A DNA stretch of 64,000 nt from Oryzias latipes (Eukaryota > Chordata > Actinopteri > Beloniformes > Adrianichthyidae): positions 10,445,261 through 10,509,260 of the forward strand of contig NC_019866.2 in assembly GCF_002234675.1 (NCBI RefSeq). Direction: 5' to 3'. A model generated the notes under the pieces. That model was not told the origin of the DNA, ran no database searches, and worked only from the letters and a program-made list of their open reading frames with translations. Shown here piece by piece: positions 15,901 through 64,000 of this stretch; positions within the stretch are counted from its first letter, which is position 1; each line of letters begins with the position of its first letter. The position numbers and the translations under genes were made by a program.

Positions 15901-16812
15901 ACGGTTACAGGCATCATGTTTGAAACGGAAAAACCCTACAAATGTGGCAATGATAGAAGCAGACAAACACGGCCATGCTTGATTGCCAGACTTCCTTTTG
16001 TTATTTCACAGTGTGTTTGAAGTCTTCAGTAAGTGTCTTCGATTTCTGCACATTTCCCTGAATCAAAAACAAACAATAATATGCACCGGACAAGATTCAC
16101 ACAAGCGTGTAAGGCAACCAAACACAAGCTAGAGCAGCGAGGAGCCTTTTTTCCTCTCAGACCAGCCGTTTTAAACCTCACCACAATAAGTTGTGGGCCT
16201 GTTTACTGCACTGACTATAAATACGGGCTAATTATTTCACAGCGTTAGCGAGACAGATGTTTTAGTTGCATCCCTCCATCTCACCCAGGCACATATTGAT
16301 GGCTCACAGACTGTTTATGCTCTTTTTATTCATCTGTGCTGTGACCTCTTCCAGCTGTAGGAATTTGCCAAACCTGGTGGTTCATAAAGTGTAGCCCCTC
16401 CAGCATGTGGAGCCCATGCCTTGTTTTGTGCATGCGCACGAGCAAATAAATAAACAAGAAAAAAAAAAAAAGGGGGAAGATGTATGTTCAATAGTAATCC
16501 ATAGAGGAGCGGGCCTTGCGGTTATATGATCTAAACAGACTCTGATGACTGTGTATACATGGGGTGAGTTAAACAAGTGACACAGAACATTATGCTTTGA
16601 TCTGCTAATTACAGTGGAAAACAACCTGGCAACAAAAGCGCTCTGCTCAGATTGGCCGCATTACCTGTGCTTTCCACTTTGCACGCAACAAAATGCTCGA
16701 GACACGAAAGTGAGTGTTTTTTTTCACTTTACAAAGAAATCCCACAGAGAAAAAACAACTGATTAAAGCATCCATTATTTGATCAAAAATCATCAAATGA
16801 AAAAAAAATCAA
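9918..16812. other. Intergenic region downstream of cenpx, no gene seen
   Basis: I find no spliced or intact gene. The stretch 10310-10370 is G-rich on the + strand. Stretches at 10080-10700 and 11900-12300 are less AT-rich than the rest but translate only to frames without domain character. Single TCF-type motifs occur at 13807 (CTTTGATG) and 16594 (GCTTTGATC). No poly-A signal for cenpx is clear nearby. Confidence 0.5.
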
Positions 16813-17066
16813 TGATATTCCCCCCTCTCTAATATCCCTCTCTCTTCTTCCCTTCTTTCCTTTTCTGTCCGGTCCAACATAAAAGATTTTCAAACATGAT
16901 TGAAATGAATAAAGTCTGGCCTCGATTACAAAAGGGGTTTATTCAGACATACCTCTGTTTTGTCAGAAGATTCATAACCCCTGTTGTTAAAGTAAAATAT
17001 GTCCATCACAAGAGGCCTTCAGCTCTCATCTGTTTGCCTAGCTGTTGGACAGGACAAGTTAAAAAA
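16813..17066 (+). mobile_element. Poly-A retroelement, copy 1 (5'-truncated)
   Basis: This is the 3' end of the family also present at 34673-35263 and, inverted, at 59704-61219. It shares TTTCCTTTTCTGTCCGGTCC, the GGGGTTTATTCAGACATACC segment and the end GACAAGTT plus an A run. The candidate target duplication is AAAAATCAA (16804-16812 and 17067-17075), so the insertion starts in the pyrimidine-rich tract. It has no coding capacity. The poly-A end and variable 5' start point to LINE-type target-primed insertion. Confidence 0.75.
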
Positions 17067-17075
17067 AAAAATCAA

Positions 17076-20000
17076 ATGCCCCAAACGAGACATAGCTATT
17101 GAAAAATGCCAAAAAAATGTACACAGTGAAAATTCCAGAAATTCCAGAGTTGTATTGTAGTTAAATGACAGATTCAATTACATTTACATGGTAAACTGAA
17201 TAACACATAGGTTAAACAAAGGGGAAAAACATTGATTTCAGTGCAGAATGCCAACTTTATGTGAAACAAAGATCTTTATGTTGTTTTAGAGTTGATTTAA
17301 TGCTTTTTTTGCTCAGTGCTGTTCTTATTTCTGGGCATGTTTCTACAGACAGATTCATAATTTTTCAAAAGGTTGTGATACAAGATTTCCAATTTGTGCA
17401 CATCCTTTGCAAGTAACTTTTACCTTTGATTTACAAGAAAACCCTAAAGGAAAATGATTAAATAAATAAAACTGAAGAAACGTCCAATGTTTACTTCTTT
17501 TTATTGTTTTTCGTCACTTCTGGAGCCTTATTGTGTTACTCCTGAGCATTAGGTGATTTAAAACTACACAGCCAGTTCTTGTTTTGTCATCCTTTTAATG
17601 ACAGAAAACTTTCACCCACAGTTAGGATTTTATTTTTATCTCCCAAAGCTCTTCAAATACATGAATAGCTGCACCTTGGTGCTGCCTTTAATTGCCACAA
17701 TTGCCATTTAGCAATAAGCTGGTTAAAAAAAGGAAAGAAAAACAGTCTCAGGGCATGTTGTCAGGTTTAATAAGGTCCTTGTTGAAAGGGGACTGCTGTG
17801 TCGGCACCACCAAAGACTGCTGCCTGAAGTGGCCTCCAGTGGACCAGAAGGTCCCTGCAGGGTTTTGATGAGCCGAGGGAGCACAGATTGTCTCTCCCCC
17901 ACTGTGGGGGTGTGAAGGGCTGCAGTGGCATCAGCACTCCTTGCTGTGCGTGGCTAAGCCGACAGAAAGCGTGGAGAGGAAGAGGTCACAATCACAGCGC
18001 CGCAGAAGGAAGATGTATGGCATTGCTGACACTGGAAAAGCCAGACGGCGGTGACACGCTTTTACAGAGAACAAACTTTTACAGGCCCAGAAGCAGCAGG
18101 CTGTCTTTCACATCGCTTTGGTGAATTAAGGAAAGTGTGGATCTTTTGTGAGATATACCAACAAGCAAACAAAGGCCGGAAAAAAATGTTGAGTTTTATG
18201 AAAAATCTTGTATTTTATTTTTTGTTTTTAAGGTTTGTGTAAGTCCTCACAGAGAAAGCATAAAAACGGATAAACAATATCATGCTAAATAAAAATCTAA
18301 AAGACTTTACTCAACTGCTTTTCAATTTATAAAGATTTAATCTGTATTGAAATATCTTGGATTCTTCAACATTTTCTTAAATTCTCATACAGGAGTGACA
18401 TAACTGAGTCACATTTACATCGTTGTTTACTTGCTTTCTGTTGTCAACAAAGCAACAAGCTAGATCAAGCGCAACATGCAGGCAAAGATTTTGTTGAAAA
18501 GATGATAAAAAAGGACAAGAAAATAAAAAATAAACCAACATCCCAATTAAAAAGTTGAAATTTTAAAAAAGGAAAAATAATCTAAAAATGAATTCATGAT
18601 AAAGAGAAATAGTGGAAGTTTTTATCATTTAAATAATGACGCGGACAACATTATTTTTGAAGATGTTTATTGTTTTAAAAGTCATGAGTTTTAAGAATAT
18701 TCTTCCATCAAAATATACTTAATTAACTTTAATTGATTAGGTTTAGTATATGTTGCTCTAATAAAGGAACAAAAAATACAATTTCACAGTTTTGGAAGAT
18801 AATAAAGACAAGTGATCATGGACTTTATCATTTTTAATCATACAAAATGTAGATATTTTTGCATTTTTCCAAGCTGGTATTTAAGTTTTGGAAAATTAAG
18901 AGGGCAATCGAAGCAACATTTCCCAATGATAAAGTATTGTAACATAAAAATCCAAACATTGAAATACTTGGTGACACATTTACTGACCGTGATACGTTCC
19001 ACAGGAGAACATGTATAAACAAAAAAGAAGAAAGAAAAGAAATGCAGTGACAACTGTGAACTCCAGGTCCATGTTTTATAGAGCTGTGTTGTTCACATTC
19101 TCACATTGAGCCCTCCACCTTCAGGCCCCCTTCCAGTTACTTTGATTCTTTATTCACCAGTCCCCTCTACTAACCCTCGCCACCCCATCCTTAAGTCCAG
19201 CTGATGGAGGCTCCTTTGTCAACCGGCACCCCGGCAACAGCTTCAAAGAGCTGCTGGGTGTAAATGCAGAGCGCCTGAAAAACAAAACAAAAACTGAAAA
19301 ATAAAGAAGTCCTAGAGGGCTTTGGAGATATTCACCGAAGAATCCCAGAAAGGGCGGGAAAACATTCAGCTTTTTTGTAAAAAAGAAAAAGAAAGAGAGA
19401 AACACAATTTGCTTAGAAGCAGCTATTTGTCAAACAAGCATCATCATTTACTAAATACACAAAGGTGCGGATTGGGTCATTCTTAGTGTAATGGCAATAA
19501 TAAACACATGAAAAAACGACACTAGACTTTGCATGGGACCATTATATCTGTGTCTTTGTGCTGCATCATCAAAGCCCATTAGGAGACCGTGAAAGCCTCC
19601 ATTGCTCTTCGTGACCACTTCCTCATTTAGTGATAGCTGAATTGGAGGACAGCTAGATTGTTGTGCAAGACAATGTCATGCTTTTGGACTGAGTGCTGTG
19701 CTTTGATCTCATGTGACACCCTCAAAGCTTTGTCAATGGCTGATATGTTAACAACCAGTCTACTTATTCTAGCTCTGTTCTCCACCTACTGCCCTGTCAA
19801 TCAGAGCTCTGCAGGGTAGGAGAGGTTAGGAGGGAGGGGTAAAAGGGGATGTAGAAAAAAAAGTCTTTCATCTCTGCCCCACATTGGACTCCAGCAGATT
19901 TGTGCTTGGCGTGGCAACGCGCCTCGCCTTATACCCACAAAGTGCATGCCAATGACACAGTGACTCCAGAGCTTGGCACCAGGTCTCCAGCCAGTGAACC

Positions 20001-23000
20001 CTCTATTCATCACGATGGAGGAAACACAACTGCATCAGGGCCACAGCTTATAATTAAAAGTCCTAAGCCTCAAAGAGCAAAGCATCTTCATTTTAATGTT
20101 AGGCTTCCATCTGGTTTAATTCTTGCTCTGTGTCCCATCAGATAGGCATGTGGACACAGAAGCAAGAGACACATCAGGACTACAAAGAACATGTGTCTAA
20201 TCAAGGATTAGAGGTTTGCTCTTTCTTCAGTGGCCTAATTATCGGATTGGTCAGATCAAAACCACTTCATTGAGATCAAGGATGGTGTCTTTCGCTTGTC
20301 CCGCTCCTCTGTTGCACAATACCTCACCAAAGCAGCGACAAACCCAGGGGGAGACCAGAAGTCGTGGAGCGAAAATGAATGTACTTCATGTTTGGAGAGC
20401 ATGTTGTGTGATTAAGGGGAGCCCACATCAAATGCTGTGGTTTAGGAAAACCACCAGTTGAAAAACAAGATGCGTCTTCGGTGGAGAGCAGCACAGACTG
20501 GAGATGGTGTTGTTCAGAAGTCAGCCCAGCCCAAAGCTATCCCGCCTGTCTGTCTTTGGGGACAAACAGTGAAATAAGAGACCGCAGAGATCGGAAAAGC
20601 ACTTGGAAGTTGCTCTCAATGAGAGAGCACGATGAGCATCAAACTGTTATTCAAAGTCAAATATTAAAGCACGGAATCAAAACACTTCAGATTTGGGACA
20701 AAAAAACTGCCTTGCTTTGTAACTTATGCAAGGGCATGACTTAGATCAAAGACTTGTGAGAAAACAGAAAGGCAAGATGATGTAAAAACTGGCAACTCTC
20801 TGCATTATTGGGCATTATTGTAAGTGCTTTTAATACGTGAGCATTTGAGCAGATTAAGAACAAAACCCACTTCCGTCTGCTCCAACAGACATCTGTGGGA
20901 AGTGCTGAATGAAAATGGAGGGATAATACCCCCTTTTTCCCACAGAGAGAACTCCTCTGGACAGAAGGATCGCAATGTTGCTGCCACATGTGTGAGCTTG
21001 TTTACTTGTGCTTCACTTTTAACTAAAGGAATCTCATGATTCAAACAACAAAACAAACTAAATTATTAGCATGTTACGGCATTACACGCTCTTTCTCCGT
21101 GACCTGAGCAACAGGAGAGTGCATGTGTTGTTATTTTCCTCCCCGAATCTCTTCAGTTAAGATAGAAAAAGGGCCTTTCCTCAACTGTAATTATTGATAT
21201 CTCCCCTTTGAATGAGACACATCCAGTGATAGGGTGATGGACTGATGAAAATCGAGGTGGAAATGGTGCCAGTTGATCGAGGGAAGGTGCAGAGGGTCGG
21301 TCAACTAACAGCAGAGCCCCTGATTACATTGTTGCATAAATAAACAGGCCCTCTGCGGGCTCCCTAGAGTCCAGTTGCAGTGCAGGAGAGGAAGGCTTTC
21401 ATTTCAGGGGCCTGAGGTCACACCAAGCTGGTGATGAGATGTGGCTTAGCTGTCTACTCACTCTGTTTCTCGACATCTCCATCAACAAGCCAGTGAACAT
21501 GAGAGAGGTACAACATCTCAGTGAGAAGCTCATTGATTATGTGCCACTTCCTGCAATCACAAACTGTGTAGAAAGACCATCAGTGTGCAGATTAATAACT
21601 GTCAGTCTCTGAGAGGAGCAGCACAAGTTGAAAGGGAAGAAGAAAGGATGTTGCATTGCTGGGCTTTTTGATGATGATGAGGGGACATCTGGATGGGTAA
21701 GATAAGTGTTGGAGGAAAGAGGCTGTGAGAGACAAGGTTCAGATGCTTTTGAGCCACATCTGTAATCGTCCTTCCTTCACCTCCGACCATAACAGCGCCC
21801 CGGCCCTCTCTTCTTTCCGTGTCCTGCAGCTATCAAGGCCAACATCAAGGCATGTCCCTGCTAAATACAGGCCCCCTTATTAAGAACCCATCATCAGATA
21901 AACAAGATAAACAAATCCTATTCCTGGCAGGACTGATCAAAGGGCTTTGTGTGAACCCCATGGCCAGTTTCAAGAAGGCAAAAATCAAAGGCAGCTGACA
22001 GTCACATAGAAACGCAGAAATGTAGTCTATTGTCCCTGTATGGGCAAAAACAGCAAATGGGGCCGTGAAGAGGGTTGACTGAGGACTGCAATCCACCACT
22101 AGCTGCACTCTTGGTCTTCTAGTGAAAGGTCGAGTGGTGGTTGGCACCTGCCCATCAGAACACATCAAGCTGAATTCTGACCATATTAAGGAAAGAAGCG
22201 TGATTCCTCAGTCCTGATGGTCGCGCAAAGGGACAAAGTCATGAAACTCAACTCGGATTCCAATTTATTGAGCATTTTTTAATACTCATTGTTTTATTCC
22301 TTTTCTAGTCTTCTTATGTCACCTCTTTTTAGTTCATCTGTTCTTTCAATTCCTTTCCAGTCACTCAAACAGCTCAGAAGTCTTTTCATTGTATTTATTA
22401 TTAGTGTAGATAAATCCACACTGTCATCAAAGGAAACACCAGAAGCTTCTAGGTGCTTAATGAAGATGTCTGATCTTTTGTTCACTTGATCAATTCACTC
22501 ACACAGGTTCTCCCAGCAGGCCTACATGGAACTGTTATCAAAAGATTATCCCAAAATAGTCACACGGCGTCTTCATTGGACCACCCACAGAGAAGAAAGA
22601 AACGTCTGAGGGATTATTGTACAGATCTTGCAGGGATATTGAATCCAGAAGGACACAAGGTTTTTGTCACAACTCCAAAAAAATCTCTTTTATGAATTAT
22701 GTTAGTTTGAATCTGTGATTTTTTTTAACCTAGTTTGACACTTTTACTACTTTATATACCTGATCGTTCCTTTTTATTTATTTTTTCTTGCATTGGTTTG
22801 ATCCCACCCCAGAATGTGCTCTAAAGTGTGCTGCACATCTAAAACGCAGGAACAAATGTTTACCAGTGAACAGTTGGAAGTTGATGAATCAAAACCCAAA
22901 AGTTTATAGGTTCAGCAGTGAAACAGTATCTTCCAATTAATTGATTATATCGATACATTTGAATTTGTTAAGAAGTTTTATTTTGGGGGGAAAATCGGAA

Positions 23001-27329: not shown

Positions 27330-27940
27330 ACTTTTTCTTCTTCTTTCTCTTTCGGCTTTTCCCATCAGGGGTCGCCACAGCGAATCATCCTTTTCCACCT
27401 CACTTTATCATGAACATCTTCTACCCTAACGTTAGCCAACTTCATGTCCTCTGTTAAGACATCCATGTATCTCCTCTTTGGCCGTCCTCTTGCCCTCCTG
27501 CCAGGCAGCTCCATCTCCAACATCCTTCTACCAATATATCCACTATCCCTCCTCTGAACATGTCCAAACCATCTCAGTCTGGCTTCTCTGACTTTGTCGC
27601 TAACACAGGCAACATGAGCCGTCCCTCTGATGTACTCGTTCCTTATCCTGTCTAACCTGGTCACTCCTAAGGAGAACCTCAACATCTTCATCTCTGCTAC
27701 CTCCATCTCAGCCTCTTGTCTCTGTCTCACTGCTACCGTCTCTAACCCATAGAGCAGAGCTGGTCTCACCACTGTCTTGTACACCTTTCCTTTGAGTCTT
27801 GCTGGCACTTTTCTGTCACACAACACTCCTGACACTTTCCTCCAACCGCTCCAACCTGCCTGCACTCGCCTCTTCACCTCTTTTCCACACTCCCCATCAC
27901 ACTGAACTGTTGACCCCAAGTACTTAAACTCCTTATAATC
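27330..27940 (-). pseudogene. RTE-type LINE ORF2, C-terminal fragment
   Basis: The minus-strand frame translates to the end of a non-LTR retrotransposon reverse-transcriptase polyprotein. Visible blocks are EFKYLGSTV, RPALLYGLETVAVR, LRFSLGVTRLDRIRNEYIRG, RLRWFGHVQRR and GRRARGRPKRRYMDV, ending CGDP. These are characteristic of the RTE clade downstream of the polymerase domain. Endonuclease and polymerase core are absent, so this is a 5'-truncated, inactive copy. The 3' end GTGGCGACCCCTGATGGGAA lies at 27357-27376. The frame runs on into the minisatellite at 27941-28036, which supplies its apparent N-terminus. Confidence 0.85.
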
Positions 27941-28036
27941 TAGCCACAGGGGTTGCAATCTAGCCACAGGGGTTGAATCTAGCCACAGGGGTTGCAATCT
28001 AGCCACAGGGGTTGAATCTAGCCACAGGGGTTGCAA
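27941..28036. repeat. Minisatellite, alternating 20/19-base units
   Basis: Five units of TAGCCACAGGGGTTG followed alternately by CAATC (20 bases) or AATC (19 bases), so the higher-order period is 39 bases. Because 39 is divisible by three, the minus-strand frame reads a 13-residue repeat (QPLWLDSTPVARL). It abuts the truncated LINE fragment, suggesting expansion at the 5' junction of the insertion. Confidence 0.9.
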
Positions 28037-28140
28037 GCCAGTAACTTCTGTGCCGGTCCCAAGCCCGGATAAATAGAGAGGGTTGCGTCAGGAAGGGCAT
28101 CCGGCGTAAAAATTGCCAAAATAACCATGCGAATCATCCA
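28037..28140 (+). repeat. RTE-related 3'-end fragment, sense orientation
   Basis: TGCCGGTCCCAAGCCCGG followed by GTTGCGTCAGGAAGGGCATC and CGGCGTAAAAAT is the block that precedes the GTGGCGACCCC end in RTE-related fish repeats. It runs on the + strand, opposite to the LINE fragment at 27330-27940, so the two are separate or rearranged pieces. Confidence 0.65.
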
Positions 28141-28647: not shown

Positions 28648-30145
28648 CAGTACAGACCAAAAGTTTGGACACACCTTCTCATTCAAAGAGTTTTCTTTAT
28701 TTTCAGGACTATGAAAATTTTAGATTTACACTTAAGGCATCAAAACTATGAATTAACACACGCGAAATTATATACATAACATAAAAGTTTGAAACAACTG
28801 AAACATATTTCATTTTGTAGGTTCTTCATAGTAGCCACCTTTTGATTTGATTACTGCTTTGCACAGTCTTGGCATTCTCTTGATGATCTTCAAGAGATAG
28901 TCACCTGAAATGTTTTTCACTTCACAGGTGTGCCCTGTCACGTTTAACAAGTGTGATTTCTTGTCTTATAAATGGGGCTGGGACCATCATTTGTATTGTG
29001 CAGAAGTCAGGTGGATACACAGCTGATAGTCTGTGAACGTGTCCCCAAGTGCAGTCACAAAAACCATCAAGTGCTACAAAGAAACTGGCTCACATGCTTA
29101 CCGCCCCAGGAAAGAAAGACCAAGAGTCACCTCTGCTGTGGAGGATAAGTTCATCCGAGTCACCAGCCTCAGAAATGGCAGGTTAACAGCAGCTCTGATT
29201 AGAGAGCAGGTCAATGGCACACAGAGTTCTAGCAGCAGACACATCTCTACATAACTGTTCAAAGGAGACTGTGCGAATCAGGCCTTCATGGTAGAATATC
29301 TGCTAGGAAACCATTGCTAAAGAAAGGCAACAAGCAGAAGAGACTTGTTTGGGATCAATAAGACAAGGAATGAACATTAGACCAGTGGAAATCTGTGCGT
29401 TGGTCTGATGAGTCCAAATTTGAGATTTTTGGTTCCAACCACCGTGTCTTTGTGCGACGCAGAAAAGGTGAACGGATGGACTCTACATGCCTGGTTCCCA
29501 CCGTGAAGCATGGGGGAGGAGATCTGATGGTGTGGGGTGCTTTGCTGGTGAGACTGTTGGGGATTTATTCCAAATTGAAGGCATACTGAACCAGCATGGC
29601 TACCACAGCATCTTGCAGCAGCATGCTATTCCATCCAATTTGCGTTTAGTTGGACCATCATTTATTTTTCAACAGGACAATGACCCCAAACACACCTCCA
29701 GGCTGTGTAAGGGCTGTTTAACCAAGAAGGAGAGTGATGGGGTGCTGCACCAGATGAGCTGGCCTCCACAGTTACCGGACCTAAACCCAGTCGAGATGGT
29801 TTGGGGTGAGCTGGACCGCAGAGTCAAGGCAAAACAAGTGCTAAGAATCTCAGGGAACTCCTCCAAGACTGTTGGAAGACCATTTCAGATCACTACCTCT
29901 AGAAGATCATCAAGAGAAAGCCAAGAGTGTGCAAAGCAGTAATCAAAGCAAATGGTGGCTACTATGAAGAACCTACAATATGACATATTTTCAGTAGTTT
30001 CACACTTTTTTGTTATGTATATAATTCCACGTGTGTTAATTCATAGTTTTGATATATTCAGTGTGAATCTACAATTTTTATAGTCATGAAAATAAAGAAA
30101 AACTCTTTGAATGAGAAGATGTGTCCAAACTTTTGGTCTGTACTG
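28648..30145 (+). mobile_element. Tc1-like DNA transposon with long inverted repeats
   Basis: The ends 28648-28864 and 29929-30145 are inverted copies of about 217 bases, starting CAGTACAGACCAAAAGTTTG. TA dinucleotides flank both ends (28646-28647, 30146-30147), the standard Tc1/mariner target duplication. The total is 1,498 bases, a normal Tc1 size, so the DNA is full length although the transposase is broken. The two inverted repeats remain similar with scattered differences, implying moderate age. Confidence 0.92.
29015..29942 (+). pseudogene. Tc1-like transposase, inactivated
   Basis: The remains of the coding region lie in three frames. The DNA-binding part is seen at 29033-29254 (VTKTIKCYKETGSH, RPRVTS). 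The catalytic part is seen at 29395-29589 (RWSDESKFEIFGSNHRVFVR) and 29487-29942 (FQQDNDPKHTS, WPPQLPDLNPVEMVWGELDR). The last carries the second D and the E of the DDE triad. At least two frameshifts and several stops separate them, so no active enzyme can be made. Its last codons overlap the right inverted repeat, as is usual in this group. Confidence 0.9.
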
Positions 30146-34672: not shown

Positions 34673-35263
34673 GTGCTCGTCTGGAGCCGTGGGCGCTCTT
34701 CTGGGACGGGGCCTTGTGCTGGGCCCTCCTGGCGAGGCACAAATTTTTTGCACGATTGAATGAAATATTTCACACAGTTGGTTTGAAGGCATAAGTATGC
34801 GTATTGTGTACATGTTGACATGTGAACATTTTTGGAGCCAACAGGTATGTTATAACATTTGAGTGTGTGTGTGGACAGGCCCCGCCCTTATAGACTTGTA
34901 GTGCATCTGAACCTCACCGTAATGAGTATAACCATCCAGAAACTTGTTGCCTTATGCTGCTTCATGGTTTTTCCCCCCCCCCCCCCTTCTTTTTATAATC
35001 ACCCTTCCATCACCCCCTCTCACATCCCCCCCCCCCCTCCTTTCCTTTTCTGTCCGGTCCAACACAAAAGATATTCAAATATGATTAAAATGAATAAAAT
35101 TTGGCCTCGATTACAAAAGGGGTTTATTCAGACATACCTCTGGTTTGTCTGAAGATTCATAACCCCTGTTGTTAAAGTAAAATATGTCCAACAAAAGAGG
35201 CCTTCAGCTCTCATCTGTTTGCCCAGATGTTGGACAGGACAAGTTAAAAAAAATAAAAAAAAT
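34673..35263 (+). mobile_element. Poly-A retroelement, copy 2 (5'-truncated, internally deleted)
   Basis: The copy is flanked by AAAAATGCAG at 34663-34672 and 35264-35273, a 10-base target duplication. It begins GTGCTCGTCTGGAGCC, matching the inside of copy 3 near 60590 (inverted), lacks the several hundred bases that follow there, and then matches from the GATTGAATGAAATATTTCAC block to the end GACAAGTT plus an A-rich tail. Poly-C runs at about 34974-34986 and 35027-35037 are part of the element. No coding capacity. Confidence 0.85.
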
Positions 35264-39085: not shown

Positions 39086-40265
39086 TGGTAACAAAAACAA
39101 ACAAGCTCAGTGGATATTTGATATAAGTTACTACTGAACATCTTTTTGTCGGATGTAAACTACATTGTATGCAACTTTTGTTTAACCCTTTACTCCCTCA
39201 CTTATCTTTTTTTTACACTTTATGTAGAATTCCTTCTGTTCTGAAAAGGCAAGAAATGATTTAAATTGTTATAAGAAAGAAGTCTGGACATTACAGCACC
39301 ACATCCTCCAGTGTAGCAGAGTGGTAGTATTCTCATTATCTCACAAAATAAACCAACTGACTACAAGTGCATAAAAAAGATCAAATGAAGACAATGAAGA
39401 CAAAGGAGAATAACTGGGTCCTGATGAAGAACTTACATTAATTTATGCTCGCATGTACCTCAAAAAGAGAAAACAGTCAGGTCTTGTTTCGTGGAGCATG
39501 TCTACAGTCATTCCAGATATAAATGCTTGAGTCAGTGTTGGAGTCAGTCTGATGTTCTCAGAAGTTTAAAATTCACTCAGTCAAGCCGATGTTAGTGGTT
39601 CATAACTTTCCTGAAACTGCAGAACAACTCTTTACGGTTAATCAACACTGACGGCTGTTCTGGCTCATGAGCAGAAGTCTGCTTTACGATTTTCAGCTGT
39701 TTACATTTGAATGCCTATAAGAATGCATCCCATCCACTCACTCTTTCAGATGCAATTAAAGTCCACCATCTGGACACATATGTCAATGAACTGTGATGCT
39801 ACAATAAAATAGATTTCAAAATAAAATTGTTGGAACTAAGGCATTCACTCATCATCTCACTACTCATTTGTGGGGCGGTTTGATCTTTAAAAAATTGAAT
39901 ACTTTGATTAATCCCCTAAACTTTTAATAGAACTCAACAGTTTTAATCTGCTGTCCATCTGACCACAAACTGAATTTGATCCCCCCCCCCCTCCTGCAGT
40001 TAAAAAACAACTTAAGGGAGCCAACATGACAACTGGACCCATAAAGAAATAAATGTACAGCAGAAAAACTGTTTCCTGCACAGATATAAGTTATTTGCTA
40101 ACCCCAATGTAAATGAAAGGAATAGAATTTAAAAAGTTACATCAATTACCGGTAGTTTGAAAGATCTCATTACTTAGGATTGGAATTTATGAATCAGTTT
40201 CTGTATTAAGCCAGCAACATTTAAAACATTTCCACTCTGAAAAAAAGTTTCTTGAAACTTTTTGT
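39086..40265. other. Intergenic spacer, nothing recognised
   Basis: AT-rich DNA with a run of C at 39981-39990. No gene or element is supported. Confidence 0.45.
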
Positions 40266-40274
40266 AAAGAAAAT

Positions 40275-40640
40275 TTGCACGATGGTGCAGTGGTTAGCGC
40301 TTTTGCAGGAAGGCCCCCAGTTAAGTTCTTGGCTGGGGGACCTGAAACAGAACACCAATGGGGGACCTTTATGTGTGGAGTTTGCATGTTCTCCCCGTAC
40401 ATGTGAGGGTTTCTCTGGCTTTGGCTTCCTCCCACCATCCAAAAAAAATGCTACACAGGTTAATTGATTACTGTAAATGTTTCCGTGGGTCTGAATTTAA
40501 GTGTGCGTGGGTGTGTGATTTGTGGCCCTGCAACAGACTGGCCACCTGTCCAGGATGTCCCCTGCCTTCGCCCACAAGTGGCCAGGATAGGCTCTAGCAG
40601 CCCTGTGATCACGAAATGGGTTTAGAAGATGAACGAACAA
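40275..40640 (+). repeat. L2/SINE-like interspersed repeat
   Basis: It starts GATGGTGCAGTGGTTAGCGC, like the tRNA-derived head of many fish SINEs. It continues with GTGTGGAGTTTGCATGTTCT, GGTTAATTGATTACTGTAAA, a degraded GGCCACCTGTCCAGGATG and GGATAGGCTCTAGCAGCC, and ends GATGAACGAAC. These blocks, in this order, are standard in fish L2-tailed repeats. The internal B box is degraded, so transcription is unlikely. Confidence 0.75.
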
Positions 40641-40870
40641 ATAAAATTAAGAATAAAAATTCTTTTTTTATCCCTCAAAATCGAAATTCAGCTGAAAGTA
40701 AAAACAACTTTCAGATTTTCTGTGTTGATATATAGGTGGCTGTTTTGGGTTGTAAGCAGTTTAGTTTTGTAGGAGTTTATGGCTCAAATCTGTAACAATT
40801 ATGTGATGGAAAAGTCAATACTGAACATTTAGAAATGAAACAGAGAAAAAATACAACAAAAAACAAAAAT

Positions 40871-42000
40871 GATCAAAGGAAAAAGAAATAAAAGCTAAGA
40901 GATATTTTAAGAATTACAAAATGTCCTTCTGAAAGTGATTATTTCAGTTACCAGACTGAACAACATGACAAGAAACCAAAGAAAACTTTTGGTCACTAAA
41001 TCTGTGCCTATATGCTTAATTTAAAAAACCAAACAGCAAAATCACAGATCAAAGTCATTTAGAAGGCATTCATTCAAAAGTTAAGTGTTCATTAACCTAA
41101 ACTGACACCACTAATTTCATTTAATACGCTAATTTTCCTTATTGCCCTAATCAGAGCCTGTCTGATTTTGTCTCATTGTGGTGTGGCTTTGATCAGGAAG
41201 TCTAACCCTTTTTCTTTGCCACTGCCACATGGTGCCTTGTCTGTGCAACTGTCCACATATGCTGAGATGCCTGGGCATCAGTGTTTTTCCCCTTAAGGCT
41301 CTCCCTCCCGTTCTCTCAAAGATATCAAAGGCCTGCATTTACAGTTATCTCTGCTTGGTTGTACCACGGAAGTAAGCACTGCAGGTCAGGGGTCAGAGCT
41401 GTGGCTCAAGATAGAAACAAATCGGACTGACATGGACTTCAAAGGAAAGCGATCCTCTGACAGACTGTTGTTTTAGCCTGTAACTCTTGGTATCATAATG
41501 AGGAAGGTGGACATTAGGAGGAGAGAGCAAAGGAGTATTCCAAGGGATGGGCGTGGGAGACTTAGTTTTCTGAAGAGAAGTTCTACCGTTGAATAATTGG
41601 AGCCAACAAGATCAAAGAAAAAGCTGAAGTTTGGTCTGCTTAACCTCTGTAGCACAAAAATGGAGCACAACAAAACGGCGTCGTTTTATTCTGTCCTGTT
41701 GTTCTTCCTTTGCTTGGCGAAACCCAAAACCATGTTAAACATAATGGAAAATATTTGAGGTCTTCTTTTATTAACCAAGAACGGCTTTGATGTTTGACTT
41801 CTTTATTTGTTTTTAGAAGAAGAAAGGAGCAATATGGCATGCAAGTGATCTTCTTTTGGAGAGAACACATACGAAAATAAGGGGGAGGAATGAATGATAC
41901 GAGACCAAACCAAGCTTGTTCATGCTACATAATCAATTAAACATCATTATTGGCCCTTTCAAGAGTACTGAGATCAAAGACCTGCAGGAAATGATCAAAG
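40871..42000. promoter_or_regulatory. Cluster of TCF/LEF-type binding motifs, candidate Wnt enhancer
   Basis: Seven matches to (C/G)ATCAAAG on either strand lie in 1,130 bases: 40871 (GATCAAAGG), 41047, 41186 (GCTTTGATC), 41610, 41784 (GCTTTGATG), 41972 and 41993. A related TATCAAAGG is at 41323. Elsewhere in the window the motif appears roughly one to three times per 10 kb. The core matches the optimum for TCF/LEF HMG domains, which carry the beta-catenin output of Wnt signalling. The nearest likely target is notum, 11.5-12.7 kb downstream and known as a Wnt-induced feedback inhibitor. Binding and enhancer activity are inference. Confidence 0.5.
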
Positions 42001-45461: not shown

Positions 45462-46310
45462 TTAATATTAAATTCCACTTTATTTATATAGCCCAATACT
45501 ACAACAATAGTTTGTGTCAATGGACTTCATACTGGTAATTGTATAATAAACAGGAAATCATGAAGAACATGAAGTCCTAGAATTCAACAGGTGATGGGTA
45601 AACTAAACTAAAATGAATATGCTATACTAGACACCCCTGCCCTTAGACCCTAAAAACAACAACAACAAAAAAACACATTTCAGAAAAAAAAGAAGAAACC
45701 ACAGGCATGTCCACATGAAGGAGGGGTCCTTTACCAGGACGGACAGGCGATGTACCAGAACTCTTAGAGAAGAATTAGCTTATCTAACTCTACGACTACA
45801 GGATTAAATAGTCCACCAGATGGGTTTCATCCAGATGGAATTGAGGGATGGCTGGGGGCGCAAGATGAGCCAGAGGCAGGGTCCACAGCCAAGCGTTGGA
45901 GCAGGAGCAGAGACGAGCCAACGGTGAGGACCACAGCCAAGTACAGGAGCAGAGACGAGGCAACTGGAATCTGGAATCACCCCCGCTCCCCAGAAGGGGG
46001 GTGGGAAAGAGGGACAATAAAGGAATCCCACTGCACCAAAAACCGGCTTGGAGAACTAAATGATAAATTATTGATTGAGAATAGAGGGCTGGAGAAGTAG
46101 ATGAAAATAGACGACAGAACCCCAGTGCACCATACTTTTCTCAGCTTCTAACTTCTAGCAGCTACTAGCAACTAATTATTATTGTTATTCAATTTAATTC
46201 AAACAAAACAACAGTAAGTTAAATATTCTCTGATTACTAGCTAGCCTGGCAATAAGCCAGTCCAAAAAGAAATCTTTTAAGCCTAACTTTGAATGTAGAT
46301 ACTGTGTCGC
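45462..46310. repeat. Fish interspersed repeat with CTTTATTTATATAGCCCAAT head
   Basis: The opening TTCCACTTTATTTATATAGC is a well-known start of a high-copy fish repeat. The body continues with CCCTTAGACCC, an A-rich part, GAAACCACAGG and GGGGTCCTTTACCAGGACGG. Two imperfect tandem copies of a unit with CCACAGCCAAG and GCAGAGACGAG lie at about 45885-45962. The far end is uncertain (TACTGTGTCGCCCTCTCTTA near 46310). Minus-strand frames here follow the tandem repeat and are not genes. Confidence 0.5.
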
Positions 46311-52600: not shown

Positions 52601-53230
52601 TTTCCATTACTAGAAAAGCAAACATTTCATTAGGCCAATAAAATATGAACTACCATCATGAAAGCATCACCTTAGCAAATGATCAGTTAAATATAAAGGT
52701 TGAATTTTGCCTTAAATGTGTCATTGAATGAGAGGCTGTTGGAGGGAAGTCTTCTTCAATCACAATGAAGCAATTCTGTTTGAAATGGATGCTCTGCTTC
52801 ACTTAAAATACATAGAGGAGGAAAAATGGGATGGATGAAGCTAAAAATGAGTGGGAGTTAATAGTTGCTTTGATCTTCGGAGGCTCAAATTTCTTTTTTG
52901 TTTCTTTTTGGCTTGTTTTTAACAGTAATAATCACAAAATGATTAGGAAATTGTTGTTTTTTTAAGTCACAAAAAGAAGGACTTCTCAAATTGATTAAAT
53001 CTCGCGTTTTTTTTAACAATATTGTCAGATATTGTAGGTTTCTTCTCAGACAAGTGTGTAACAAGATGGGTATTCTGACTTCATAAATTTATGGTGGAAT
53101 GGGAAATGGGCATTTGAAGGCAAATAAAAGCCACCACATCAAATAAAACATCGTGGATCAAAAGGACCAACGTATGGAATTTTTTCCCCTAGTCTGCCAC
53201 GCTTGATCATACCCCGAGCCCAGCCCCGCT
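46691..53230. other. Intergenic region upstream of notum, no gene seen
   Basis: No coding gene is supported. Blocks of less extreme composition at 47300-48300, 49900-50700 and 51300-52100 may be conserved non-coding DNA. An octamer ATTTGCAT (47675-47682), the POU-factor site, lies 15 bases after CTTTGATC (47653-47660). Further TCF-type motifs lie at 47416 and 51384. Confidence 0.4.
52867..52875 (+). promoter_or_regulatory. notum: TCF/LEF-type motif upstream of notum
   Basis: GCTTTGATC is a full match to the (C/G)CTTTGAT(C/G) optimum and lies 661 bases before the notum start codon. NOTUM is known as a direct Wnt/beta-catenin target, so a proximal site is plausible; a single 9-base motif is weak evidence. 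Confidence 0.4.
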
Positions 53231-53535: not shown

Positions 53536-56500
53536 ATGAGAGCGACCAGAATGGTTTCATCTGTTCTTCTGCTGGTGCTGATGCAGTCCGGCGCTCTGTG
53601 CGCACGGCGGTTCCGGGGTGGCCGCAACCCACAACCAAGGCGCGCACCCCCTTCTCCCACTCATCGAGCGGACCGGGGCGACACCACGGAAAGCTTCCCG
53701 TTGGATTTCACGGCAGTGGAGGAAAACATGGATAACTTCATGACACAAGTGAAAAACCTCGCGCAGTCGCTCTATCCGTGCTCCGCGCAAAAGCTTGACA
53801 ACGACATGAAGCTGAACTTTTTGAAGAACACATCTGTCACCTGCAACGACGGTAGTCCTGCGGGGTAGGTACCAATTTATGAGATTTGTTTCAAAACTAT
53901 AGAGTGATGGAGTAGTACACGGAAGGCACGGGTCAGAGCAGGGTCATCTGTGCCGTGTGCGTTCTGTGGTTATTTGCGCCTTTTACGCAGCGGCCTCGCG
54001 GTACTTCAGCAATTTCAAAAAAAGGAAGAGCTGGTCTGCCAGGATTTGGACACCCATAAAAAGCAATGTGAACAGTTCCGAAGGTGACAGGACTTGAGTT
54101 CAGGCAAGAAGTTGGACAGCTGCTTTGCGTCAGCAAAGCGTGAAATTTGTGGAGAGCCACATGAACTGAGCTTCATTTCCTTCGCTCCAAATTAGAATGC
54201 AGGAATTGCTCTGCTGAAAGTTTAGATTGAAGTTTTCAGACCCCGCCCATTGCCTTTTTTTTCCACTCCCCAACTCTCTTTGAAGATTGCAGGCACAAAC
54301 ACATGTTGCTGTAAGTAGTGTACCTGATTTTAAATTTTCTATTTAATTCGTATTTATTTCAAATACACATTTTTCCAACAATAATTCAGGGCAACAGGCT
54401 GTAACACCCCAGCAAAGGTGTACGAAGCCTAACCCAAACTACAAAGCTCAGCACTTGAGTTCTGAGCAACGTTTAAAGGACAGAAATCATATTAAAGGCA
54501 ATAAAAGTAGACAACAAAAGTACAATTACTACATTTACATCAGAGGACCAGCAATATTATTTATTGCAGACAGAAATCTGTCCTTTTTGAAAAGAAAAAA
54601 AAATAGTATTGGTCTACTTTAACTTAAATTGATATAATTTTTAACATAGAACTCACAATGAAATACCTCCTTCAAAGTAATATTTGTATTTTAAGGTGAA
54701 ATATGTTCCCGGTGTGTGTAAAAATTGTTATTTTTCTACTTAATTTTGACCCAACTAAAGTTTATTATTGTTAAGAAATGTTTTATTTTAAGTTGTTAAA
54801 ATGATAATTGTGTGGGAAAGTGAAGGATCACATATGGACTGCGCTTTAGACAGATGCTATGTGTTCTTTTATGAGTTTGGAATTGTGTCTAATTTACATT
54901 AAACTTCAAAGTGTAATTCAGAAAGAGCTGTCTCCTGGTGCAGTAAATCTCTCAGGTCTTTAGGGACACAGCATGAGGAGGCAAAGTGAGTTATCATGTC
55001 AGTCTGTCTTTCCCATCAGTTCAGATACGGATCCATTTGTCAACATTTTTGGATTAAAAAGTTCCAAAGACGTGCCCCTAAATGAAAAAAATAAAAAAAA
55101 GTTGCAATTCATTTCTTGGATTTATACCTTTGTAACAACACCTTTCTGACTTGACATATTTACGTTGCTATGGATGCCTCCACTTTGTTATGTGGGAGGA
55201 GGCTGCCTGCATCATAATCTGAAGCCCACAGTAGTAAAGCAAAAACATCAAGTGGAGCCAAAGCATGACTCAGAGTTTGACCGAGTGATACAGAAGTTCA
55301 GCCAAGTCAGTTTGTACCATAACTGAGGTATTTGGCAATCTTTGGAACGGCTTATTGGAACGCATTTCATAGTGAGAGAAAATAATATAAACATTTGCAA
55401 ATAAATGTGTGCAAAATTACTTCCAATTGGTCCTGTGGTTCATAAGAATCCTCCATTTGCTACAGTTTTCTGAAATTTAAGCACAACTAGATGTTTTTAC
55501 AGGCAAAATGATATATTTAGGGATTAAATAGGATTCTAACTGTGCAACACGTTAGAACTAAAGTTTGACGAGCTTGAGGACAAGATGATGATACGTGACC
55601 TGTTCCAACAAACCCCATTCTGCAGTGTACAAACATCATAGGGGACAGCTTGATGTCTATCGCCTGTTGATCACTCCAACAGTCTCCAGAGTGTAAGGAA
55701 ACACACAAGCTCATTGTTCTCATCGGCGGATTTATATTTGCTATTTTCTGCTACCTTTCCCAGATAGCAATCAGCCAAATAAGAGGGCATCTTTGTTTAT
55801 ATGAAAGCAATGATCTCATACATGCTGCTTTTGTCATCTCTCATGCAGAAATAGTGAGGGTTTAACCTGTCAGTGTCATTTCAAACAAACTGAGTGTCGA
55901 TACTTTTGTATGCAAGCAGTAAAAAAAAAAAATCTAAATCATATTTATATATCTTTAACATTTTTGAAGTATTCAGTCGGTCCTGAAATGTCAACAATAT
56001 GATGATTTTGCAATTATTCTTTTTGCAGATACTACCTGAAAGAGTCTCGGGGAAGCAGACGGTGGCTTATATTCCTTGAAGGTCAGTAGTTTGGACTGAG
56101 TTTGATTCCATTTCTAACCTAAGCACCATTTAGGAATGCTATATAACTTGAGAGGGGGAGAAAGATGCATTCTGTTATGTTGTTTTTCATCTCTTATCCA
56201 GGCGGCTGGTACTGTTTCAACAAGGAAAACTGCGACACTCGATACGAGACCATGAGGAGGTTTATGAGCTCATCCAAGTGGCCACACACAAAAACAGGTG
56301 AGTCAAATTGTGCATGGTAATTCCTACCTGGGGCCCATCTCACACGCACAAAAAACAGAGGTCACTTTAATGTCTTGACAATTAAAAAAGATGGGATGTC
56401 TTCAAGCTCATTTACAGACACACAGTCGTAAAGTTGCCGCAGAAAAGGGCTACCTGGCGCCCTCTGCTATAGGAACAGAGAGGCCTCCATCAATCATTTG

Positions 56501-58230
56501 ACTGTAATAACTGTAATTTATCTGATGAATATGAGGAGACTGTGTCTAGAGGGGAAGTCAGTTCGGCTAATGATACACGTTGTTCTGTCTCTGCAGGCAC
56601 AGGGATCCTGTCGCCACTGCCTGAGGAAAACCCTCATTGGTGGAATGCAAACATGGTGTAGGTTTGACGTGTGTTTGTGAGCCTACCGATGCTTGAAATC
56701 ACAGGGCAGGCGGCTTTAACTTTATGTTGTTTGTGCAGATTCATTCCATACTGCTCCAGTGACGTGTGGAGCGGCGCTACAGCAAAAACAGAGCAAAGTA
56801 TGACATTAGGAGATACACACATTCAGGACAACCACCAAAGAGATAGGTTTTTTGTTTTGTTTTTTAACATCTTTGCTTCTTTGTTTTGACCAGATTTTTA
56901 TGCCTTCATGGGCTCACTGATCATTCAGGAGGTTGTGAAAGATCTTCTGAACAAAGGTCTGGATAACGCCAAAGTCCTCCTATTAGCAGGAAGCAGGTAT
57001 GCTGGTATTTCTGTGTCAGAAATCTTGCATGTTTTTTTTTGTGAAAGTACTGATCAGAATGGGTTATGTTTCTGTGGAAAAAGTGCTGGCGGCACAGGGG
57101 TTCTGCTGAATGTGGATGGCGTCGCTGAGCTGCTGGAGGGTTTGGGCCACACGGGGATCCAAGTGCGAGGCCTCTCTGATTCTGGCTGGTTCCTGGACAA
57201 CAAGCAGTACCAGTGCACAGACTGTGGAGACACTGCCTCCTGCGCCCCCACCGAGACCATCAAAAGAGGCTTTAAGTAGGAAATCTTTGCAAAACAACAT
57301 TATATTTAGTTTTTTAGAAGAAATCAAGAAACTAATGTGTCCCATCTATCAGATACTGGGGAGCAGTGGTGCCAGAGAGGTGCAGACAAACCCACGAAGG
57401 AGAAGAATGGAACTGCTTCTTTGGATATAGAGTCTTCCCTTCAATTAAAAGTGAGGCTGAGAGCATGATTGCTCAATTATGTGATTTTTTTATGAGCCTA
57501 AGCCGTCTAGGTGATAATTTTACACCATATATTCTACATTTCTCTCTGCACAGGCCCAGTGTTTGTGGTTCAGTGGCTCTTTGATGAGGCCCAGTTGACT
57601 GTCGACAATATCCAGCTGACAGGGCAACCTGTGCAGGAGGGCCAGTGGCGCTACATCCAGAATCTAGGCACTGAGCTGAGAAACACACTGAAGGATGTCC
57701 CGTAAGACCATTATTCTCTATACATTTCTCATTCAAGAAAAAATAGTTCATTGATTTTTGTATCAACATTTATCCATCAGGGCCATGTTTGCTCCAGCAT
57801 GCCTGTCCCATGAAGTTATCACCAGAAAGTGAGTAGGATTTAAGTTTGAAACCACTTTGGTTCTAACAGGGAGATTTCAGTCTTTCTCCCTTTAAGCTGA
57901 CAGCGCCCTCTTGTGTTGCACACTAGCTACTGGATCGATGTGCAGGTTAAAGGCACTTCATTACCCAGAGCCCTTCACTGCTGGGACCGCAGCCTCCAGG
58001 ACAACAGGAACAACAAGGCTCCACCCAAAGCCTGCCCAGTACATCTGATCGACAGCTGCCCATGGCCTCACTGCAACCCCACCTGCCCCACAATCCGAGA
58101 CCAGTTCACAGGGCAAGAGATGAACGTTTTTCAGTTCCTCATGCACATGGGCTTTGATGTGCAAAAGATGGCCCAGCAGCAGGGCATGGACCCCAGTAAA
58201 CTACTGGGCATGCTCAGTAGCGGCAGCTAA
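53536..58230 (+). CDS. notum: Notum, palmitoleoyl-protein carboxylesterase (11 exons)
   Basis: Exons 53536-53864, 56029-56081, 56202-56297, 56597-56657, 56739-56797, 56894-56996, 57084-57275, 57353-57450, 57554-57701, 57781-57828 and 57927-58230 join in phase to give 496 residues, the human length. Notum is a secreted alpha/beta hydrolase that removes the palmitoleate from Wnt proteins and so blocks Wnt signalling outside the cell. A signal peptide covers about residues 1-23, followed by a basic proline-rich stretch and a glycosylation site N98-T-S. The nucleophile is S234 in GSSAGG, with D341 (WLFDEAQ) and H390 (CLSHE) completing the triad. The substrate-pocket region FLEGGWYCFN and the cysteine-rich C-terminus are intact. 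Codon 234 is split by intron 6. Fish have several notum paralogues; which one this is cannot be settled here. The enzyme looks functional. Confidence 0.97.
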
Positions 58231-59691: not shown

Positions 59692-59703
59692 TGGTGTACG
59701 CAT

Positions 59704-61219
59704 TTTTTTTAAAAAATTTTTTTAACTTGTTCTGTCCAACAGCTGGGCAGGCAGATGAGAACTGAGGGCCTCTTGCGTTGGCCATATTTTACTTTAACAA
59801 GAGGGGTTAATAATCTTCAGACCAACCAAAGGTATGTCTGAATAAACCCCTTTTGTAATTGAGGCCAAACTTTAATAATTTCAATCATGTTTGAAAATCT
59901 TTGGTGTTGGACCGGAGGAAAAGGAAAGAAGGGAAGAAGAGAGAGGGATGTTAGAGAGAAAGGGGGGGGGTGATAATAGGAGGGGGGGATAAGACCATGA
60001 AGCAGCATAGAGCAGCAAGTTTACTGGTTTATCATTACGGTAAGGTTCAAATGTAGTACAAAAAGGGCGGGGCCTGTCCACACACACTCAAATGTTATCA
60101 ACACACCTGTTAGCTGCAAAAATTGTCAACATGTACACAAAACAGATAGTGTTCACACATGCATACTTATGCCTTTAAACCAACTAGTGTGAAATATTTC
60201 ATTCATTCAATCATGCAAACTATTAGTGCAAAGGTGAGCTAACATTTGTGCTTAGGTGAGTGTTTATGTTCTTCTAAAATGGATGGTGGAATGTGAGGGA
60301 GAGTGCCCAGCCATCCCCACACCAAGACCCCCGCCGCAGCGGCAGCCGGAACCCCCCAACGCCACACAGCAGCAGGCAGGGAACAACCGCCCCCCCGGGC
60401 AACCAAATCCGCCACCCAGGCTAGGGCCAGCAGGACCGCCACGATACCCCCAGAGCCAGAGAGCAGGGAGGCATGGGGGGAAAGAGAGCGCCGCCCCAGC
60501 CCAACCAGGAGAGCAGCCCCCCTGCCGCGCCAGGAGAGCCTAACGCAGGGCACCACCTGAGAAGGGCGCCCAAAGCCCCAGACGAGCACCCCATCACCAC
60601 CCAGGAGTTCTGGGCATCCCCCCGCCCCAACCCCAGGTACGAGCCAGGACCCCCCAAGGGAGACCCGCTCCGCACTCCAGGCAGCCACCCACACGGCCCA
60701 CGGTTGGTCCAGGTAGGGGCCATCCGCCCACGCCCAGGAGGGGAGCACCCCGGGAAAAAAGGGGGCCCACAAGGGGTGTTGTAAACATGGCCCGGGGAAA
60801 TTTGGAAATTTGGCGGGGCCCAGCGCTCAGGGGCAAGGACCAGGACCCACCCCCCCAGGGACACGTACACCCCCGGCTCAGGTGTAATGTGAACCCCCTT
60901 CCCGCGCGGAGAGAGCACCACCGGGCCCAGGAAACCGGCACCCAGGGGACACGGCCGCCGTTGCCAAGGGCCCCGTACACCACACCAGGGAAGGGGTAAG
61001 GAACAGATGCTCCTAGGTCCCACCTTCCTTGCAAAATGTGTGTGCGTGTGTGTGTGTTTGTGAGGGTGTGTGTGTGCATGTGTGTGTGTTTATGTTGGAA
61101 TGTATATTTTGAGGGGGGAGGGGTGTGTGTACCAAGGGGTTGCAGTTAAAATTGATGGGTAGGGCACTGAGGGGACATCTCCTGATTACTCACAGTGATG
61201 TCCCCCTCACCCTCCCCTG
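59704..61219 (-). mobile_element. Poly-A retroelement, copy 3 (longest)
   Basis: The copy is flanked by TGGTGTACGCAT at 59692-59703 and 61220-61231, a 12-base target duplication. On the minus strand it runs from 61219 to an A-rich tail at 59704-59724 preceded by CAAGTT, the same 3' end as copies 1 and 2. The part 60290-61000 is strikingly GC-rich and gives long frames on both strands with only low-complexity G, P, R and W content. I read this as non-coding body or 3' UTR of a longer, L1-like LINE, 5'-truncated on insertion; no reverse transcriptase is present. The poly-A tail and long target duplications support LINE machinery. Confidence 0.85.
61036..61092. repeat. TG microsatellite
   Basis: Interrupted TG runs inside retroelement copy 3. 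Confidence 0.85.
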
Positions 61220-63436: not shown

Positions 63437-64000
63437 ATGGATCCTCATGGAGGACATTACCTCAACAAAGACGCTGTGCTGTCACCTTTGGGAGCAGCCC
63501 GAATGTGTCAACTACTTCTTGGCTGCACCATAATGGCCCTTGTGTCCCACGGCGCGGGCTACAGTGCCAGCTATGGAACCTTCTGCATGTTTGTCTGGTG
63601 CTTCTGCTTTGCAGTCACGCTGGTTGTATTCACCCTGGACATCACCCGTCTCCACAACTGTATGCCGATCTCCTGGGATAACTTCACAGTGGCTTTTGCC
63701 ATGCTAGCAACACTCATGTACATCACCGCCTCAGTTGTCTACCCAGTCTACTTCCTCCAAGTTGAGTGGCCCGATGAAGAATGGGAGGTCCAAATCTATC
63801 GCATCGCAGTCACGGTTTGTTCCAGCATCTGCTGCTTTCCGTACGGCGTGGAGGTTTTCCTGACGCAAGCAAAACCTGGAGCTGTGGTGGGCTACATGGC
63901 CACTGTGTCTGGTCTGCTGAAGGTGGTACAGGCTTTTGTGGCCTGCATTATTTTTGGGGCCCTGGCCAACGATAGTGAATACAACAACTACATTGCCACG
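63437..64000 (+). CDS. myadml2: Myeloid-associated differentiation marker-like protein 2, 5' part
   Basis: An open frame runs from ATG 63437 (A at -3, G at +4) to the window edge without a stop: 188 codons of a protein that is about 300 residues in the family. It has the MARVEL-domain pattern of hydrophobic helices at about residues 22-42, 47-67, 83-107, 121-141 and 152-176. Family-typical blocks are GTFCMFVWCFCFAV (47-60), DNFTVAFAMLATLMY (81-95), and YMATVSGLLKVVQAFVACII (153-172) followed by FGAL. The last closely matches MYADM/MYADML2. It is a multipass membrane protein of poorly known function; relatives associate with membrane rafts. The position downstream of notum on the same strand agrees with human MYADML2. 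The coding part appears uninterrupted so far, as in mammals. Confidence 0.9.
   Translation, partial: MDPHGGHYLNKDAVLSPLGAARMCQLLLGCTIMALVSHGAGYSASYGTFCMFVWCFCFAVTLVVFTLDITRLHNCMPISWDNFTVAFAMLATLMYITASVVYPVYFLQVEWPDEEWEVQIYRIAVTVCSSICCFPYGVEVFLTQAKPGAVVGYMATVSGLLKVVQAFVACIIFGALANDSEYNNYIAT

Follow-up and report, generated by a model that had tools for sequence, protein, structure and literature searches.

Eight ATCAAAG cores lie within positions 40871-42000 of the window (the whole stretch of fish DNA that was analysed, 64,000 bases, searched on both strands). The notum gene is located on the plus strand, which puts the cluster upstream of it, at 11.5 to 12.7 kb from the start codon; notum is the nearest gene identified. 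We regard this homotypic TCF/LEF cluster as a candidate distal Wnt-responsive element of notum (probability about 0.48), that is, a plausible and ordinary Wnt-responsive element at roughly even odds. The confidence attached to this reading and to the three other readings weighed below is a matter of judgement and was not computed.

Cores of the cluster and the notum gene

Seven of the eight cores have the form (C/G)ATCAAAG (SATCAAAG), and six of these seven are GATCAAAG (Table 1). The latter occurs 13 times in the whole window, with 6 of the 13 copies inside the cluster. The motif search returned exactly the coordinates and counts of the earlier note, which had described seven (C/G)ATCAAAG motifs and one further site in 1,130 bases. 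Neighbouring sites are spaced at intervals of 176, 140, 136, 287, 175, 187 and 21 bases. All but one of the seven intervals measure 136 bases or more (P-value = 0.003), and variation among them is low (P-value = 0.04), both being post hoc values that were excluded as evidence.

Related HMG cores do not share the excess, which is specific for the TCF core. The cluster contains nine WTCAAAG (eight ATCAAAG and one TTCAAAG), whereas AACAAAG, TACAAAG and ACAAAG are all absent from it (1.4 copies expected for ACAAAG), and the reversed control GAAACTA is also absent (0.16 expected). The hexamers most enriched in the stretch compared with the rest of the window were TCAAAG (10 vs. 1.7), GATCAA (6 vs. 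0.9) and ATCAAA (8 vs. 1.8), an enrichment that is partly circular because the motif itself guided the choice of the stretch. The C-clamp helper motif GCCGCC was not found in the cluster, which is uninformative since only 0.14 copies were expected.

The assignment of the gene as notum, already made in the earlier note, was confirmed by two frames matching human NOTUM structures with the E-values listed in Table 1, and the distance of 11.5-12.7 kb given there agrees with a notum start codon at 53536.

Table 1. Coordinates of the TCF/LEF sites and of the notum coding frames in the window.
Feature	Coordinates	Strand	Core start	Evidence
Candidate Wnt-responsive element with eight ATCAAAG cores	40871..42000	.		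Motif counts and scan statistics
Site 1, GATCAAAG, followed by G	40871..40878	+	40872	Motif search
Site 2, GATCAAAG, preceded by A	41047..41054	+	41048	Motif search
Site 3, GATCAAAG	41187..41194	-	41187	Motif search
Site 4, TATCAAAGG, the sole core without the SATCAAAG form	41323..41331	+	41324	Motif search
Site 5, GATCAAAG, preceded by A	41610..41617	+	41611	Motif search
Site 6, CATCAAAG	41785..41792	-	41785	Motif search
Site 7, GATCAAAG, preceded by A	41972..41979	+	41973	Motif search
Site 8, GATCAAAG	41993..42000	+	41994	Motif search
Isolated GATCAAAG, start codon of notum about 0.66 kb downstream; alone within chance	52868..52875	-		Motif search
First coding exon of notum, putative target gene	53536..53865	+		Human NOTUM structure 4uyz_A, E 2e-26
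Open frame with notum exon (PAE domain)	56890..57276	+		NOTUM structures, E 3.4e-37; PF03283, E 3.1e-19
Open frame, probably a further notum exon	57511..57702	+		PF03283, E 1.4e-4, 21.6 bits, under the curated cut-off of 26.6

Strength of the excess and competing explanations

With the motif fixed, multiple consensus TCF/LEF sites are present beyond chance. ATCAAAG occurs 40 times on both strands of the window (100 dinucleotide shuffles gave a mean of 20.0 and a largest value of 37), and SATCAAAG occurs 27 times (shuffle mean 8.9, largest value 16), 7 of the 27 being in the cluster. According to the local dinucleotide composition, 0.37 ATCAAAG and 0.17 SATCAAAG are expected per 1,130 bases, so that the earlier estimate of about 0.1 was right in order of magnitude. 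The background of 1-3 motifs per 10 kb given at the same time was slightly low, as 20 SATCAAAG were found in the 62.9 kb outside the cluster (about 3.2 per 10 kb); ATCAAAG locally reaches up to 10 per 10 kb (at 10001-20000). The second-densest 1.1-kb stretch of the window contains 3 ATCAAAG cores, compared with 8 in the cluster. In Markov simulations of orders 1, 3 and 5, the observed maximum was reached in 0 of 300 runs at each order, the top ATCAAAG maximum being 6. Under uniform placement with the span as observed, P-value = 2e-4 for ATCAAAG, 1.6e-4 for SATCAAAG and 4e-5 for GATCAAAG; after adjustment for the span, which was chosen post hoc, P-value = 0.0009 and 0.0005 for the first two, and for GATCAAAG the observed clustering was reached in 0 of 20,000 placements. 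The scan count of ATCAAAG ranks top among the 210 words with its letters, and also among 1,344 7-mers with two G/C (8, while the next reaches 6).

Without a fixed motif the cluster is not unique, and it might have arisen by chance and have no function, an AT-rich motif with a doubled core number having been picked from the many words and stretches open to view. After masking of tandem repeats, ATCAAAG ranked 10th among the 5,919 7-mers present at least 3 times and GATCAAAG ranked 2nd among 8,957 8-mers (before masking, 26th of 7,578 7-mers and 16th of 21,763 8-mers), and such ranks are consistent with the tail expected by chance as long as no motif is favoured beforehand. Seven other 7-mers of the 7,578, all A/T-rich and with at most one C, reach raw counts of 8 or 9 within 1,130 bases. 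The twofold excess of the core across the window (40 vs. 20) weakens the specificity of the cluster, and a second rich stretch, with 7 cores in 3.3 kb, starts from 19140. Furthermore, a span-adjusted P-value of about 1e-3 per 64 kb would imply several such clusters in a genome of several hundred megabases. However, the simulations failed to reach the observed maximum at every Markov order, the concentration of nearly half of all GATCAAAG copies in one stretch was not reproduced by random placement, the word that clusters is an established motif, and the nearest identified gene is a known Wnt target. In 64 kb some word nearly always shows clustering of this degree; the case therefore rests on a known motif together with a pathway-responsive gene and not on statistics alone. 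We treat a functionless chance cluster as a serious possibility, somewhat short of even odds.

The cluster might also be a real TCF-bound Wnt element that serves a different gene, such as one lying past the left edge of the window. Enhancers can skip genes, and no host gene was recognised to the left of notum in the scanned frames. However, notum has the nearest identified promoter and no other known Wnt target was recognised in the window, and we find such a different target distinctly unlikely. Less probable again, and in our view very unlikely, is that another HMG-box factor (SOX) uses the sites, or that they are part of a motif-carrying repeat. A repeat-like stretch does lie close by (about 40265-40650), but the cluster has neither a second copy in the window nor a tandem repeat, and it lacks the SOX-type words noted above. 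A SOX-bound element as the main reading was rejected because the ACAAAG core is absent from the cluster (1.41 expected; ACAATG occurs once, with 0.65 expected). A repeat-borne array of motifs was likewise rejected within the 64-kb window: a search with 2.4 kb around the cluster returned the self match and nothing else in the window at an E-value of 0.01, and inspection of the site flanks by eye revealed no evident common repeat unit. The window's own list of repeats may be incomplete in its all-against-all part, which does not affect the cluster search.

Several other word clusters were observed in the window. The sole 8-mer ranking above GATCAAAG after tandem-repeat masking is ATGATAAA, five copies of which are found in 432 bases at 18502-18926. 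The looser group of seven ATCAAAG cores extends over 19140-22432, which places it upstream of notum, some 31 to 34 kb from the start codon. A tandem array at 27937-28036 (a 20-base unit repeated 5.1 times or a 39-base unit repeated 2.6 times, 100%) gives rise to the strongest word clusters in the window; it sits in a reverse-transcriptase-like frame on the minus strand.

Regulatory interpretation and known Wnt-responsive elements

If the cluster acts on notum as a distal Wnt-responsive element, beta-catenin stabilised by Wnt would be recruited by TCF/LEF sitting on the eight cores. Through the element, transcription of notum, 11.5 kb away, would then increase, and secreted Notum would inactivate Wnt, closing a negative feedback loop. 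In the general model, TLE/Groucho occupies TCF sites when Wnt is absent, and these repressors would be held at the same eight sites. The earlier note had proposed a Wnt feedback enhancer of notum; the gene, the distance and the specificity for the TCF core held up, whereas TCF binding, enhancer activity, the choice of notum as target and the feedback itself are inferred.

A bolder form of this reading, which we hold unlikely, would make the cluster a strong and sequence-simple distal Wnt switch, in which six GATCAAAG and two close variants are separated by roughly nucleosome-like gaps and the Wnt dose is read by the number of TCF-bound sites. Such a switch would be a functional, not a sequence, counterpart of the mouse Notum distal element. 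Notum restrains Wnt outside the cell, and as a candidate the element is of an ordinary kind. If the notum reading is true, a compact element of eight near-identical sites would provide a clean system for studying how site number and spacing affect the response of a feedback gene, and for testing whether a distal Notum element is common to fish and mammals.

In the excerpt of a mouse liver ChIP-seq study considered here, two beta-catenin/TCF4 sites were reported at Notum, of which one lies in the promoter and the other about 30 kb upstream (PMC4790944). The fish arrangement is similar in that it lies upstream of the same gene and combines a distal site with one in the promoter region, each linked to TCF, but the mouse sites are defined by occupancy in liver at about 30 kb, whereas the fish sites are motifs at 11.5-12.7 kb. 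The same excerpt describes a knock-down of Notum in HuH7 cells that did not raise beta-catenin activity, and it questions the role of NOTUM in the pathway in liver (PMC4790944), which counts against the feedback step. In SW480 cells NOTUM is reported as a confirmed CTNNB1 target and is placed among potential feedback regulators (PMC3961325), and in HeLa cells Wnt signalling is reported to activate Notum strongly (PMC11460698). According to the cited part of a review, TCF sites are degenerate, not all consensus sites are functional, and many bound ones have no detectable function (PMC5464219). As in the TopFlash reporter with its six TCF sites (PMC11460698), several high-affinity TCF sites are combined in one element; unlike the synthetic reporter, the fish cluster has its sites scattered across 1.1 kb, at intervals ranging from 21 to 287 bases. 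The Axin2 Wnt-responsive elements (CREAX, PMC11460698) are a further parallel, since there too a negative-feedback gene is concerned for which control through TCF sites is proposed, but those elements drive reporters in cells, while the fish cluster is known from sequence. The excerpt of a planarian paper (PMC9849279) has no bearing on a vertebrate notum element, and the titles and abstract starts of the matches listed contain no mention of an enhancer of notum in fish.

Surroundings of the cluster

The 1.1-kb stretch is apparently non-coding. The Pfam scan covered 62 frames of the window, including the 34 open frames of at least 70 amino acids between 40161 and 53385; none of these 34 reached a curated cut-off, a result that shorter exons or genes without Pfam domains would escape. 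Four of the 34 frames matched Pfam at E-values of 0.03 to 0.085, far under the curated cut-offs, and the other 30 had no match. By codon-usage ranking, the best frame in 42-53 kb (45857-45964) scored 14.7, below the notum frames, which ranged from 16.0 to 40.4, although the ranking favours notum and myadml2 because it was trained on their slices from the same window. A structured RNA or tRNA was also considered and rejected, as there was no Rfam match at the gathering score and no tRNA predicted by ARAGORN (bacterial settings) in the window.

Downstream of notum, a frame with a MARVEL domain starts at 63437 (63437-64000; PF01284, E-value = 4.8e-16) and is cut by the end of the window. We take the gene to be probably myadml2, the neighbour of NOTUM in mammals. 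To the left of notum, transposon relics were all that was recognised among the selected frames scanned in 1-40 kb, and since selected frames alone were scanned there, a gene with short exons is possible in this region.

The repeat-like stretch at 40265-40650 ends about 0.2 kb short of the first TCF site and has no second copy in the window; we presume from its appearance that it resembles a dispersed fish repeat. A relic of a DDE transposase was found at 29472-29942 (Pfam DDE_3, E-value = 1.8e-5, under its curated cut-off). The reverse-transcriptase-like frame that contains the tandem array was recognised by eye at 27365-28087 and has no Pfam match. Additionally, one element is present at 34737-35263 and, in inverted orientation relative to it, at 59702-60229; the two copies are 79% alike across 553 columns, and a further related copy is located near 16825-17071.
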